Assembly: GCF_003063575.1 (NCBI RefSeq)
Contig: NZ_NESC01000001.1
Span: 558,001 to 622,000, forward strand
Direction: 5' to 3'
DNA: 64,000 bases
Origin: Limnohabitans sp. Jir72
GTDB lineage: Bacteria > Pseudomonadota > Gammaproteobacteria > Burkholderiales > Burkholderiaceae_C
The notes under the pieces are model-generated. The model did not search any database. It was not told the origin of the DNA and was given only the letters and a program-made list of their open reading frames with translations. Both the position numbers and the translations under genes were made by a program. Of this stretch, positions 48,489 through 55,890 are shown piece after piece (positions within the stretch are counted from its first letter, which is position 1; the number at the start of each line of letters is the position of its first letter).

Positions 48489-48646
48489 TGCGCAGGCGAC
48501 CCAACAAAAAATTTCCAGCAAATCACCAGCAAAGGCACAAGCGCCTGTGAAATCAACAAAACCGCTACGCGGCTTTTCGTACACTGAGCCAGCTGCACAC
48601 ACCGCTTGGTGGTACACCGTTGATGGCCACACGATTTGAAAACTTC

Positions 48647-49240
48647 ATGAAAAAAGCCCGACTCCTCCCGTCGCTCTGTGCCAGCTTGATCGCGGCCATC
48701 GGCTTGTGTGCCAGCAGCACGGCCTTGGCACAAATTTGCACCCGCGAATACGCACCCGTGTGCGGTCAAGTGCCAGGAGAGCCAGCCCCCCACACATTTG
48801 CCAACCGCTGCTTGCTTGACGCGGCGAAAGCCAGCTTCGTGTCGCAAGGCGAATGCACAGCGAAGCGCACACCATCCCCCACACCGACGCCCATGGTCGG
48901 CAACGATGTCGATGCCCACGGCTGCAAAAGCTCGGCAGGCTTCGTCTGGAACGAGGAGCTCAACCAATGCGTGCGGCCCTGGATGAGCAGCGCCATCACG
49001 CTGGAAGTGGCCCCCCACCGCCGCACCTGCACCGGCGTGATGGTCATGCAATGCCTCAAGGTGCGCGAACGGGTGCCTGGACAAGCCACCCCCAAATGGG
49101 TTCCGTTTTTTGGCGACATCGCAGGTTTCAAGCACGTGCCAGGCCAGCACTACACCCTGCGCGTGCGCAAAGACAAACTCGAAACACCACCCGCCGACGC
49201 GCCTGACATCACCTACACACTGCTGAAGGTCTTGCCTTGA
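48647..49240 (+). CDS. Secreted protein with Kazal-type inhibitor domain and DUF4377
   Basis: 197 residues from the ATG at 48647 (MKKARLLPSLCASLIAAIG), which opens a signal peptide ending ALAQ; an ATG at 48623 is an alternative. Residues about 31-72 match a Kazal-like protease-inhibitor domain (ICTREYAPVCG ... ANRCLLDAAKASFVSQGEC). After a Pro/Thr linker comes GCKSSAGFVWNEELNQCVRPW, then a C-terminal DUF4377-like domain (CLKVRERV...W, IAGFKHVPGQHYTLRV, PPADAPDITYTLLKV). It is probably periplasmic or exported and may inhibit serine proteases; this is family inference. Confidence 0.75.
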   Translation: MKKARLLPSLCASLIAAIGLCASSTALAQICTREYAPVCGQVPGEPAPHTFANRCLLDAAKASFVSQGECTAKRTPSPTPTPMVGNDVDAHGCKSSAGFVWNEELNQCVRPWMSSAITLEVAPHRRTCTGVMVMQCLKVRERVPGQATPKWVPFFGDIAGFKHVPGQHYTLRVRKDKLETPPADAPDITYTLLKVLP

Positions 49241-49367: not shown

Positions 49368-50729
49368 CTAGACCTTGCTGGCGCTCTCGCCCCAAGGCGT
49401 GGCGCGCATGATGAGCACCGTGCTCAGGCCATAGACGGCCATGCCTGCCCCCACCAAGGCAAAGATCATCCAAGCGGGGGACTGCCAATCAGCCAGCAGC
49501 CACCCACCCAAGGCCACCACCAGCAGTCGCAAGGTGCCAGCGATCACGGGGCCGATGGCTTTGCCCGCGCCGAGTGACGAAAAGTAGAGCGACAAGCCCA
49601 AACCAAAAAATCCATAGAACGGCCCGGCCCACAAAAAGTAGCTGCCTGCGGACGCGAGCACCGACGCGTCTTTGGAATACAGCGACGTCCACACATCAGG
49701 GGCCAAGGTCACGATCAGGCCCAACACCGCCAGCAAGGCGGTGGCCACGGCAGCAGCCGTCCACGCCACTTGGCGAGCCCGGGCAATGTGGCCCGCACCA
49801 ATGGCCATGCCCACCAAAGGCACCGAAGCCACGCCCACAGCAAACGCAATGGGTACCAACAAAAACTCCAGGCGCGTACCGATGCCATAACCCGCCAAAG
49901 CCTCGGTGCCAAAAGTGGCCACCAAACGGGTCAGGATCAAAATGGTCAGCACCGTTTGAAAAGGCGAAATGCAGGCCACCGCCCCCACGCGCAAAATGTC
50001 CAGCAGGTGCTTGCGATCGAGTGGCGTGTTGCGCACGGTGAGTCGGATCTTGCCGCGCCCAGACGACAGGTAGACCCATAAAAACACCGCTCCGCCCAGG
50101 TTGGCCAACACACCACCCGCCGCCACGCCGTGCATGCCCAGTTGCGGCATTGGGCCCCAGCCCAGACCCAGGGCCCCTGCCAGAAGCACCTGCGCCAAGG
50201 CCACCACAAAGAGTGTGACCGAGGGCACCAACATGTTGCCGCTGCCGCGGATGACCGAAGACAGCGTGTTCACGATCCACACGAACACCGAGCCGACAAA
50301 GGCCACTTCGCAATACGCCACGGCTTGGGCCAGTGCCTCGCCCTTGCCGCCCAGCGCAGACATCATCGCCCCGCCCAACAGCGCCATCAAGAGCATGAAC
50401 ACCAGGCCCAGCGAACACCCAATCCACAAAGCATGCACCGCCAGCACATTGGCCCGCGCAGCATCGCCTGCGCCCAAAGCCCGACTCACGGCAGACGACA
50501 CGCCACCGCCCATGGCCCCGGCAGACATCATGGTCTGAAGCATCACAAACGGAAACACCAACGCCATGCCCGCCAAGGCGGGCGCGCCAAACTGCCCCAC
50601 ATAACTGGTCTCGGCAATGGCGGCCAGCGCCGTGGCCAGCATGGCCACCATATTGGGCAGAGAAAACTTCAGCAACATCGGCAAGATCGGCCCGACCAGC
50701 AAAGGGTTGGCTGTAGCGTTTGAATTCAT
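49368..50729 (-). CDS. MATE family efflux transporter
   Basis: 453 residues from the ATG at 50729 (MNSNATANPLLVGPILPML), with GGA 7-9 nt upstream. Twelve membrane segments are present. MATE signatures include the N-terminal LLKFSLPNMVAMLATALAAIAETSYVGQFG and VWIVNTLSSVIRGSGNMLVPS. It exports drugs or metabolites using Na+ or H+. It follows the MarR gene by 28 bp and is probably controlled by it. Confidence 0.93.
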   Translation of the reverse strand: MNSNATANPLLVGPILPMLLKFSLPNMVAMLATALAAIAETSYVGQFGAPALAGMALVFPFVMLQTMMSAGAMGGGVSSAVSRALGAGDAARANVLAVHALWIGCSLGLVFMLLMALLGGAMMSALGGKGEALAQAVAYCEVAFVGSVFVWIVNTLSSVIRGSGNMLVPSVTLFVVALAQVLLAGALGLGWGPMPQLGMHGVAAGGVLANLGGAVFLWVYLSSGRGKIRLTVRNTPLDRKHLLDILRVGAVACISPFQTVLTILILTRLVATFGTEALAGYGIGTRLEFLLVPIAFAVGVASVPLVGMAIGAGHIARARQVAWTAAAVATALLAVLGLIVTLAPDVWTSLYSKDASVLASAGSYFLWAGPFYGFFGLGLSLYFSSLGAGKAIGPVIAGTLRLLVVALGGWLLADWQSPAWMIFALVGAGMAVYGLSTVLIMRATPWGESASKV

Positions 50730-50757
50730 GGGGTTTCCGTTCAGGGGTGGTTTGAAT

Positions 50758-51225
50758 TCACTCACCGCTGGCCACACCGGCCAGGGGTTCGAGCAAAGCC
50801 ATGGAACTGTCAATCAAATCATGCAGCTGCGCGACCTTGTCCGGGCCGAGCATGCGGTGGATGTCGTCTTGCGCCACACGCCAGCGGCGCTGCGCTTCGG
50901 TGCGCTTGAGGCGCCCGGCTTCGGTCAGGCTCACCAAGCGGCTTCGGGCGTCTGGGCCCGCAGACACCAGCACCCATTGCGCATCCACCAAAGGCTTGAG
51001 GTTGCGCGACAGTGTGGATGTGCCCATCTTGATGCGACCGGCCAGCTCGGTTTGCCCAATGGGCCCCAACTTGGCGATGTAAGAGAGCAAAGAGTATTGG
51101 GTGGTCTTCAAGCCCACCTTGGCCAGCTGCACGTCGTAGTGCTGCGTCACACGCCGCATGAACTGCCGCAACTTGAGGTTGGTGCAACCCTGTGGACTGG
51201 CCGCAAGAGAAAAAGTCTCTGTCAT
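50758..51225 (-). CDS. MarR family transcriptional regulator
   Basis: 155 residues from the ATG at 51225 (MTETFSLAASPQGC). The winged helix-turn-helix reads GLKTTQYSLLSYIAKLGPIGQTELAGRIKMGTSTLSRNLKPL, with the wing SAGPDARSRLVSLTEAG. MarR regulators usually repress a neighbouring efflux gene and release DNA on ligand binding; the MATE gene 28 bp downstream is the expected target. Palindromes just upstream of the start are likely its own operator. Confidence 0.92.
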   Translation of the reverse strand: MTETFSLAASPQGCTNLKLRQFMRRVTQHYDVQLAKVGLKTTQYSLLSYIAKLGPIGQTELAGRIKMGTSTLSRNLKPLVDAQWVLVSAGPDARSRLVSLTEAGRLKRTEAQRRWRVAQDDIHRMLGPDKVAQLHDLIDSSMALLEPLAGVASGE

Positions 51226-51227
51226 TG

Positions 51228-51260
51228 AACAATTGTAACTGCAACAATTGCATATGCAAT
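51228..51260. promoter_or_regulatory. Operator candidate for the MarR regulator
   Basis: A perfect 14-bp palindrome ATTGCATATGCAAT (51247-51260), and two direct copies of AACAATTG exactly 15 bp apart (51228-51235, 51243-51250), lie within 40 bp of the marR start codon. Spacing and symmetry fit MarR dimers binding on the promoter. Confidence 0.65.
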
Positions 51261-51426
51261 CAAAAAGCACTGATGACCAAGCCTCTGATCTGAGCACGGC
51301 ACGACATGCTGCTTTTTTACTTTGGACGGATGCCAGCCCTTGAGCCAAATGCGTACGTTGCCGCACTGAAGCCCCAGGGCCATGCGTGAGTCAATAGGTC
51401 CTCCTCATCACCCCAAGGCCATCTTC

Positions 51427-51978
51427 ATGAAAAACCACCCATACATCCCAACAGCCATCTTGTGCCTGAGCCTGCTGACACTGACGGGTGCGCACGCCCA
51501 GACGCTGAGCAAAACCGAGTACAAGGCCAGTAAATCGCGCATCAGCGCAGAGTACAAAACCGAAAAAATGGCTTGCAATTCGCAGGCGGGCAATGCCAAG
51601 GACATCTGCGAAGAAGAAGCCAAAGGCAAAGAAAAAGTAGCACGCGCCGAACTGGAGTACAGCTTCACAGGCAAACCCGCCGACCGCAATCATGTGTTGG
51701 TCACCAAGGCCAAAGCGGCATACGAGGTGGCCAAAGAACGCTGTGACGATCAGGCGGGCAACGCCAAAAACGTGTGCATCGAAGAAGCCAAGGCGGCCGA
51801 AAAGAAAGCCTTGGCCAACGCCAAGATGAATAAAGACATAGGCGATGCCAAAAAAGACGCCGCGACAGAAAAGTTGGACGCTGACTACAAAGTGGCACAC
51901 GAAAAGTGCGAGGCCCAAGCAGGCGATGCCAAAGCCAGCTGCATTGCTGACGCCAAAACCAAGTTCGGCAAACACTGA
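51427..51978 (+). CDS. Periplasmic protein of three C-X10-C repeats, unknown function
   Basis: 183 residues from the ATG at 51427 (MKNHPYIPTAILCLSLLTLTGAHAQ), giving a signal peptide. The mature protein is Lys/Ala/Glu-rich and helical. Cysteine pairs occur at residues 50/61, 106/117 and 161/172. Each is a C-X10-C unit around QAGNAK or QAGDAK, repeated with a period of 55-56 residues. The regular spacing suggests disulfide-clamped helical hairpins. I do not recognise a characterised family. It is divergent from marR across 201 bp. Confidence 0.8.
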   Translation: MKNHPYIPTAILCLSLLTLTGAHAQTLSKTEYKASKSRISAEYKTEKMACNSQAGNAKDICEEEAKGKEKVARAELEYSFTGKPADRNHVLVTKAKAAYEVAKERCDDQAGNAKNVCIEEAKAAEKKALANAKMNKDIGDAKKDAATEKLDADYKVAHEKCEAQAGDAKASCIADAKTKFGKH

Positions 51979-53486: not shown

Positions 53487-55697
53487 TTAAACCAAGGCCT
53501 GCTTCGCCGCCACACGCGCCCGCGCCGCGTGCAGTTTTTTGTAGCTGTCAAGCAAGCGCTGGTGGCGGTCCAAGCCCTCCAGCTGCAAGCTGGTGGGCGT
53601 GAGGCCATGAAAGCGCACGCTGCCGTCCACCGAGCCGGTGGCCGCATCCATGCGCTCGTTGCCAAACATGCGCCGGAAATTCACCACGTAGTCTTCCAAC
53701 GCCAACTCGTCATCCAGCGTGACTTCCAGCACCACATTCAGGGCTTGGTAAAACAAGCGGCGCTCCACCGTGTTGTCGTTGTATTGCAAGAAAGCGCCCA
53801 CCAGCTCATGCGCCTCTTCCAGCTGCTGCAACGCCAAGTGAATCAAGAGCTTGAGCTCCATCACCGTCAACTGGCCCCACACCGTGTTGTCGTCAAACTC
53901 GATGCCGATCAGGGTGGCGATGTCCAGGTAATCGTCGAGCTCGTTGTTCTCCAAACGGTCGAGCAAGGCCTCCAAGGCTTCATCGTCCAAGCGGTGCAGG
54001 TTGAGCACATCGGCACGGAACAAGAGCGCTTTGTTGGTGTTGTCCCAGATCAAGTCGTCGATCGGGTACACCTCAGAATAGCCCGGCACCAAGATGCGGC
54101 AGGCGGTGGCGCCCAGTTGGTCGTGCACCGCCACATAGGCTTCTTTGCCCATGGCCTGCAAGATGCCGAACAGCTTGGCGGCCTCTTGGGCGGTGGCGTC
54201 GTGCCCTTGCGAAGAAAAATCCCACTCCACAAACTCGTGGTCGGCTTGGGCGCTGAAAAACCGCCACGACACGATGCCGCTGGAGTCAATGAAGTGCTCT
54301 ACAAAATTATTGGGCTCAGTCACCGCGTTGCTGATGAAGGTGGGCGCGGGCAAGTCATTCAGGCCCTCAAAACTGCGGCCCTGCAGCAGCTCGGTCAGGC
54401 TGCGCTCGAGTGCCACCTCCAAGCGCGGGTGTGCGCCAAAAGAAGCGAACACACCGCCCGTGCGCGGGTTCATCAGGGTCACGCACATCACTGGGTACAC
54501 ACCACCGAGCGACGCGTCTTTGACCAAGACCGGGAAGCCCTGCGCCTCCAAAGCCTCGATGCCGGCCACGATGCCGGGGTACTTCGCGAGCACGGCTGGC
54601 GGTACATCGGGCAAAGCCATCTCGCCTTCCAAGATCTCGCGCTTGACGGCCCGCTCAAAAATTTCTGACAGGCACTGCACCTGCGCTTCGACCAGCGTGT
54701 TGCCCGCGCTCATGCCGTTGCTCACGAACAGGTTTTCCACCAAGTTGGACGGAAAGTAGACCACCTCACCGTCGGACTGGCGCACATAGGGCAGCGCACA
54801 AATGCCGCGCTCGGTGTTGCCCGAGTTGGTGTCGAACAGGTGCGATGCCTTGAGCTCGCCGTCGGGGTTGTAAACGCTCAGGCAATGCTTGTCCAACAAG
54901 CCCTTGGGCAGCGCGTCGCGCTTGCCGGGCTGGAACCAGCGCTCGCGGGGGTCGTGCACAAAGTCGGCCTGCGCAATGTCTTCGCCAAAAAACACGCCTG
55001 CATAAAAGTGGTTGTTGTTCAGGCGCTCGATGTATTCACCCAACGCCGAGGCCAAGGCACTCTCTTTGGTCGAGCCCTTGCCGTTGGTGAAGCACATGGG
55101 CGAATGCGCGTCGCGGATGTGCAGCGACCAGACGTTGGGCACCAAATTGCGCCAAGACGCGATCTCGATCTTGATGCCCAAGTTGGCCAAGACCGCGGTC
55201 ATGTTGGCGATGGTCTGCTCCAGTGGCAAGTCCTTGCCCGCAATAAAGGTCTGCGCCTGCGCATCAGGGCTCAGGGTGAGTAAGGCCTGTGCGTCAGCGT
55301 CCAGGTTGTCCACCGCCTCAACGATGAAAGTGGGCCCCGCTTGAATCGCCTTTTTGACCGTGCAACGATCGATAGACCGCAAAATTCCCAAGCGGTCTTT
55401 GTCGGACATGTCGGCCGGCAACTCCACCTGGATCTTGATGGTCTGCAGGTAGCGGTTGTCGGGGTCCACGATGTTGTTTTGCGACAGGCGAATGTGCTCG
55501 GTCGAGATGTTGCGCGTCTGGCAATACAACTTCACAAAATACGCGGCACACAAAGCCGACGACGCCAAAAAGTAATCAAACGGTCCCGGCGCCGAGCCAT
55601 CGCCCTTGTAGCGAATGGGCTGATCGGCCAGCACGGTGAAGTCGTCAAACTTGGCCTCCAGGCGCAGTTTGTCGAGAAAGTTGACTTTGATTTCCAT
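53487..55697 (-). CDS. OsmC-YcaO fusion protein
   Basis: 736 residues from the ATG at 55697 (MEIKVNFLDKLRLEAKFDDF), with AGGA upstream; the track adds 24 codons. The N-terminal 140 residues are OsmC-like (GSAPGPFDYFLASSALCAAYF). The central part is a YcaO domain, with ATP-site elements in GKGSTKESALASALGEYIERL and QCLSEIFERAVKREIL. A helical C-terminal region similar to that of E. coli YcaO follows. The cyclodehydratase-type proline-rich tail is absent (end AAKQALV). E. coli YcaO is linked to methylthiolation of ribosomal protein S12; whether the OsmC-fused form does this is unknown. No RiPP genes adjoin it. Confidence 0.87.
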   Translation of the reverse strand: MEIKVNFLDKLRLEAKFDDFTVLADQPIRYKGDGSAPGPFDYFLASSALCAAYFVKLYCQTRNISTEHIRLSQNNIVDPDNRYLQTIKIQVELPADMSDKDRLGILRSIDRCTVKKAIQAGPTFIVEAVDNLDADAQALLTLSPDAQAQTFIAGKDLPLEQTIANMTAVLANLGIKIEIASWRNLVPNVWSLHIRDAHSPMCFTNGKGSTKESALASALGEYIERLNNNHFYAGVFFGEDIAQADFVHDPRERWFQPGKRDALPKGLLDKHCLSVYNPDGELKASHLFDTNSGNTERGICALPYVRQSDGEVVYFPSNLVENLFVSNGMSAGNTLVEAQVQCLSEIFERAVKREILEGEMALPDVPPAVLAKYPGIVAGIEALEAQGFPVLVKDASLGGVYPVMCVTLMNPRTGGVFASFGAHPRLEVALERSLTELLQGRSFEGLNDLPAPTFISNAVTEPNNFVEHFIDSSGIVSWRFFSAQADHEFVEWDFSSQGHDATAQEAAKLFGILQAMGKEAYVAVHDQLGATACRILVPGYSEVYPIDDLIWDNTNKALLFRADVLNLHRLDDEALEALLDRLENNELDDYLDIATLIGIEFDDNTVWGQLTVMELKLLIHLALQQLEEAHELVGAFLQYNDNTVERRLFYQALNVVLEVTLDDELALEDYVVNFRRMFGNERMDAATGSVDGSVRFHGLTPTSLQLEGLDRHQRLLDSYKKLHAARARVAAKQALV

Positions 55698-55890
55698 GCG
55701 GTGGTTCCTAGGAATGGATGCGCCCCAGCGGTCGACTATCAGTCGATCAGCGGCTGGGTAGGTGAACAAAAGGTATGTAGGTTTACTGAACGGGGCAGCC
55801 CGGCAGTTTTCATCCTTGACCTTGTCGAATTCCCGGATATAGCACGATCCAGAACAATCAATAAGTCGGTCTCAGGGGTCAAGGATTCAC

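Follow-up and report, generated by a model that had tools for sequence, protein, structure and literature searches.

We analysed a stretch of 64,000 nucleotides from Limnohabitans sp. Jir72, hereafter the window, in which a gene at positions 51427–51978 of the forward strand encodes a cysteine-paired repeat protein of 183 amino acids plus stop, as judged from the translation and aligned homologues. The mechanical open reading frame begins at 51382 and spans 198 amino acids; we preferred 51427 because this start yields a signal peptide and agrees with the aligned starts of the homologues. The signal peptide comprises residues 1–24 (51427–51498, forward strand), with a pLDDT below 50 over most of residues 1–23, and is presumably cleaved after A24, which is invariant in 26 aligned homologues. 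The translation contains cysteine pairs at 50/61, 106/117 and 161/172, together with C13, which lies within the hydrophobic stretch of the signal peptide, where there is no lipobox. Ala makes up 20% of the mature protein, Lys 18% and Glu 11%. The nearest neighbours of the gene in the window encode a MarR-family regulator, a MATE efflux pump and DacA.

Each cysteine pair belongs to one copy of an internal repeat, with the cores of copies 1, 2 and 3 reading CNSQAGNAKDIC, CDDQAGNAKNVC and CEAQAGDAKASC, respectively. The top 30-residue self-match within the protein aligns AEYKTEKMACNSQAGNAKDICEEEAKGKEK with AAYEVAKERCDDQAGNAKNVCIEEAKAAEK at an offset of 56 residues with a score of 90, compared with a mean of 17.9 (sd 6.8, maximum 46) in 400 shuffles (z=10.6), while the probability of obtaining three C-X10-C pairs from six randomly placed cysteines is P ~1.5e-5. 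The internal triplication is thus real and far beyond chance. Combining AlphaFold2 with the repeat match, repeat 1 (51511–51669) corresponds to predicted helices 29–52 and 55–81, with Cys50 and Cys61 across the turn. Repeat 2 (51676–51831), the best conserved of the repeats (ERCDDxxGNAKDVC), comprises helix 84–106 and the first half of helix 112–162, with Cys106 and Cys117 across the turn, and repeat 3 (51832–51966) comprises the second half of helix 112–162 and helix 167–180, with Cys161 and Cys172; all three are on the forward strand. Repeat 3 is missing from two-repeat homologues, and its approach helix is of variable length. A preliminary description of the locus had proposed an exported, helical protein with three C-X10-C units, a period of 55–56 residues and an internal triplication, and each of these points is borne out by the signal peptide, the translation, the comparison of the self-match with shuffles and the all-helical AlphaFold2 models.

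The AlphaFold2 model of the window protein was computed with 25 homologues. The window protein was predicted to form helices 29–52, 55–81, 84–106, 112–162 and 167–180 (pLDDT 88, core ~97), and a two-repeat homologue helices 25–46, 51–76, 80–102 and 108–132 (pLDDT 90, core ~98). In the models of both forms, each C-X10-C spans a turn, and the fold is confidently predicted to be an all-helical up-down bundle. We dropped the idea that the 12-residue C...G...C loop resembles an EF-hand, as the models show plain helix turns.

The cysteine pattern holds throughout the family. In all 164 distinct homologues, the mature cysteines fall without exception into C-X10-C pairs, with no extra cysteine; a survey of repeat number, suggested in the preliminary description, found three such units in 132 homologues, two in 32, and one or four in none. 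In 163 of the 164, exactly 44 residues link pair 1 to pair 2. Conservation of the spacing had been set beforehand as a test of the proposed architecture, and on the sequences compared the family carries the fixed signature C-X10-C-X44-C-X10-C. The single exception to X44 (L100, 7263–7661) has two repeats joined by a 43-residue linker and looks as if it has lost repeat 1 and retained repeats 2 and 3, which suggests that each C-X10-C pair is self-sufficient. Disulfide pairing within each repeat predicts the observed pairs-only pattern of cysteines. A disulfide very probably forms within each C-X10-C, one per helical hairpin. The disulfide-stapled hairpins of the preliminary description thus stand as far as the fixed-spacing pairs, the signal peptide and the predicted fold go; the bonds themselves are very likely.

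Alternatively, the absolute conservation of the cysteines could mean that the protein uses its thiols to buffer metal (for example, Cu+) or redox state, with the invariant pairs at the end of the bundle binding metal or switching between thiol and disulfide. Foldseek searches with the window protein and the two-repeat model against the PDB, and against viral models, returned nothing under an E-value of 0.001, and the top two matches by probability (0.98 and 0.97) were chains of 7vw1, a dimeric periplasmic protein with cuprous ions. However, this match had an E-value of 1.3 and its probability fell to 0.72 with the two-repeat model, and simple helical bundles readily match one another; we treat 7vw1 as no more than a lead. 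In the recurrent clusters of neighbouring genes we saw none for metal resistance, and the spacing of the cysteines across a turn, in an oxidizing compartment, favours a disulfide. On this balance, we regard a metal or redox buffer as unlikely.

The linker between pairs 2 and 3 varies, being 43 residues long in 73 homologues, 65 in 16, 54 in 15 and 57 in 11, with rarer values, including 87, besides. In many homologues, the longer forms contain 11-residue units, such as TADARTDANKQ-TADARKDAVVD or TADARKDAxxD, each of which would lengthen the helix by about three turns. Lengthening in helical phase (weighted mean cosine 0.66) is suggestive only, since its nominal P of ~0.009 against random lengths ignores relatedness. 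On a poorly resolved tree, the linker-length states change ~37 times in total, indicating that lengthening or shortening of the second linker has recurred. These observations could point to a modular stapled rod, the third arm of which has been repeatedly extended in phase-keeping steps (43, 54, 65 and 87; also 57) to give a length-tuned periplasmic spacer or clamp acting under stress, a role that we consider quite unlikely.

We next turn to the distribution of the family. It was present in 126 of 301 genomes (~42%) of the host's own family and in 72 of 349 (~20%) of its order. In a class-wide sample, 7 of 321 genomes were positive, 2 of these being the window's own genome and a relative from the same family, and matches in a phylum-wide sample were confined to the order. 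Named hosts include Limnohabitans, Hydrogenophaga, Acidovorax, Variovorax, Dechloromonas, Thiobacillus, Nitrosospira and Herbaspirillum, and members also occur on Cupriavidus megaplasmids. The window's genome carries a single copy. Within the genus, the gene is patchy and is missing in two sampled congeners; with more than half of the sampled members of the host family lacking it, it is an accessory gene. As previously supposed, the protein resembles no characterised family: it is not covered by any model in Pfam, NCBIfam or PHROGs, scattered weak matches all falling below the curated cut-offs, no relative was found among PDB sequences, and literature searches on CX10C, and on CsbD together with BON, yielded nothing on this family. 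It belongs to a widespread, unnamed Betaproteobacterial family.

Several known protein types share part of this architecture. PsiF repeat proteins (PF07769) are likewise small and periplasmic, with tandem Cys-paired repeats and a G-(D/N)-x-(R/K) core, but differ in their spacing of about C-X16/17-C and in their motif. The PsiF_repeat profile matched none of 26 members (Pfam, E-values up to 10), hhalign gave a probability of 1.4%, and the window's genome separately encodes an unrelated tandem Cys-paired PsiF protein (G000:C23:225040-225243; L234, L241); a relation to PsiF was therefore rejected. In mitochondria, the twin CX9C (CHCH) proteins of the intermembrane space use Cys pairs of fixed spacing to staple helical hairpins in an oxidizing compartment; there, however, both cysteines of a pair sit in the same helix and bridge to the partner helix, whereas C-X10-C in the repeat family reaches across the turn. 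We found no relation to CHCH proteins in sequence. The 11-residue repeats of group 3 LEA proteins resemble the 11-mers in the extended helix of some homologues, but the repeat protein is predicted to be folded rather than disordered, and no LEA match was found with Pfam in 26 members.

Proteins of the LprI/DUF1311 family (PF07007) are also exported and carry a Cys pair about ten residues apart, although they lack such tandem repeats. The LprI-family lysozyme inhibitors, other small exported Cys-paired proteins described in PMC7933661, set a precedent for reading the repeat protein as a periplasmic inhibitor or binding partner of an enzyme. With Pfam, no LprI match was found in 26 members, and hhalign, a weak test given the poor LprI set, gave no useful profile match; a relation to LprI was rejected on these results, and an inhibitor role appears very unlikely.

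The preliminary description placed a MarR gene divergent from the repeat gene, which is correct, and suggested that the repeat gene may be co-regulated with the MATE pump, with the MarR operator lying in the shared promoter region. The MarR-family regulator (155 amino acids, PF01047) is encoded at 50758–51225 and the MATE pump (PF01554) at 49368–50732, both on the reverse strand, and a 201-bp intergenic region separates the divergent marR and repeat genes. At its marR end, this region contains inverted repeats, CAATTGT/ACAATTG, and a perfect 14-bp palindrome, ATTGCATATGCAAT (51230–51260, forward-strand coordinates), and in three close relatives (L118, L033 and L035) MarR lies on the same side of the repeat gene, all of which would fit an efflux or stress module under MarR control. 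Upstream alignment, however, revealed two separate conserved blocks. The palindrome is retained, exactly or partly, where marR is retained and is absent from loci that lack marR, while a leader block of the repeat gene, roughly 90 bases ending at the start codon (51340–51426, forward strand), is kept in 6 of 6 close loci, including two without MarR, and probably holds the gene's own promoter. At two loci (L031 and L032), the repeat gene stands beside MATE with no MarR gene present, and the congener L118 has a 4HBT thioesterase gene between the MarR box and the repeat gene, which are ~0.6 kb apart. In the simplest history, the window lineage would have lost a gene from between them or undergone a rearrangement, bringing the MarR box near the repeat gene. 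Only very close relatives have marR or MATE as neighbours, and more distant homologues have neither. With no conserved shared operator or neighbourhood, MarR and MATE are local neighbours of the repeat gene and not conserved partners; we rejected the proposed co-regulation and judge a MarR-controlled module with the pump to be highly improbable.

A different context recurs among the relatives. In many genomes, the repeat family shares a gene neighbourhood with CsbD-like (PF05532) and BON/OsmY-type (PF04972) proteins. Among 129 loci, a non-random set picked by family presence and contig span, CsbD was found within 3 kb of the repeat gene in 48, BON in 26 and either in 62. The csbD gene is mostly less than 200 bp away on the same strand, usually tens of bases upstream; anchors scored as ‘down, 0’ from csbD represent overlaps, in which the mechanical anchor open reading frame extended upstream into csbD. 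By coordinates, CsbD lies within ~1.2 kb of the repeat gene in 17 of 37 genomes. These 37 genomes contain 58 CsbD matches, and at ~1.6 CsbD genes per genome of ~4–5 Mb, chance adjacency would be expected well below once in the whole set. Neither partner is related to the repeat family in sequence: at these loci the CsbD proteins lack a signal peptide and open with the domain itself, and BON is another domain. CsbD and BON genes probably share expression with the repeat family. No CsbD gene was found in the window's own genome, where the neighbours are MarR, MATE and DacA, and we therefore infer the stress context from the relatives.

Since the family often lies beside general-stress genes, the protein is probably one of envelope stress protection rather than a drug-pump partner. 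Our favoured explanation, held with moderate confidence, is that it is a soluble, periplasmic, disulfide-stapled helical scaffold of the general or envelope stress set, with a protective or chaperone-like action. The protein would be exported via Sec to the periplasm, where its cysteines would be oxidized pairwise, presumably by DsbA, with each C-X10-C stapling one hairpin turn. Two hairpins would make up an obligatory four-helix up-down core, and a third would sit on the end of the extended helix. Induced under stress, the protein would act in one set with CsbD and BON-domain proteins, its rigid Ala/Lys/Glu-rich scaffold protecting or holding other envelope components in osmotic or starvation stress. 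Its signature, confidently predicted fold and stress-gene context now allow this family, present in a large part of the Burkholderiales, to be defined and thus annotated and tested. CsbD and BON proteins are poorly understood, and a third recurrent partner, a periplasmic one, would make them easier to place.

Upstream regions of the family contain two recurrent elements. An imperfect Crp-like palindrome, GTNCG-N4-CGNAC, occurs before 18 of the 164 homologues, compared with 1.1 expected from shuffles and 8 in a −500 to −250 control region, itself frequently part of stress-gene DNA. In one other genome (G839), a perfect GTACG-N4-CGTACRGA precedes the repeat gene, occurs twice upstream of csbD, and also lies close to genes for Crp-type regulators, one of them next to the repeat gene; a DUF883 gene is preceded by a looser match. 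The palindromes of this genome, at G839:C1 ~1164000-1210000 and 2117132-2117174 (L203, L206, L208–L210, L215 and L216), outline a putative Crp-type regulon, in line with a place for the repeat protein in the stress set. The window has an imperfect copy, GTACG-TTGC-CGCAC (51353–51366, forward strand), identified by pattern match; across its genome, the strict palindrome showed no excess over control, and the evidence here for a putative Crp-type operator is weak. We consider the palindrome a lead to a regulator site of the family. The second element, GTAGGAC...CTAC...GTCCGCT, lies ~60–110 bases before the start (for example, in L014, L016, L025 and L027) and occurs in 16 of 164 upstream regions, with 0 in shuffles and 4 in the control region at −500 to −250; it is a possible operator or RNA leader.

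Two further genes of the window deserve mention. The product of 48620–49240 (forward strand) is exported and combines a Kazal-type inhibitor domain at the N-terminus, a weak match above the cut-off, with a C-terminal DUF4377 domain; a homologue of this protein adjoins MATE in L035. On the reverse strand, 53487–55769 encodes an OsmC-YcaO fusion, a single chain that carries OsmC, YcaO and YcaO_C domains.
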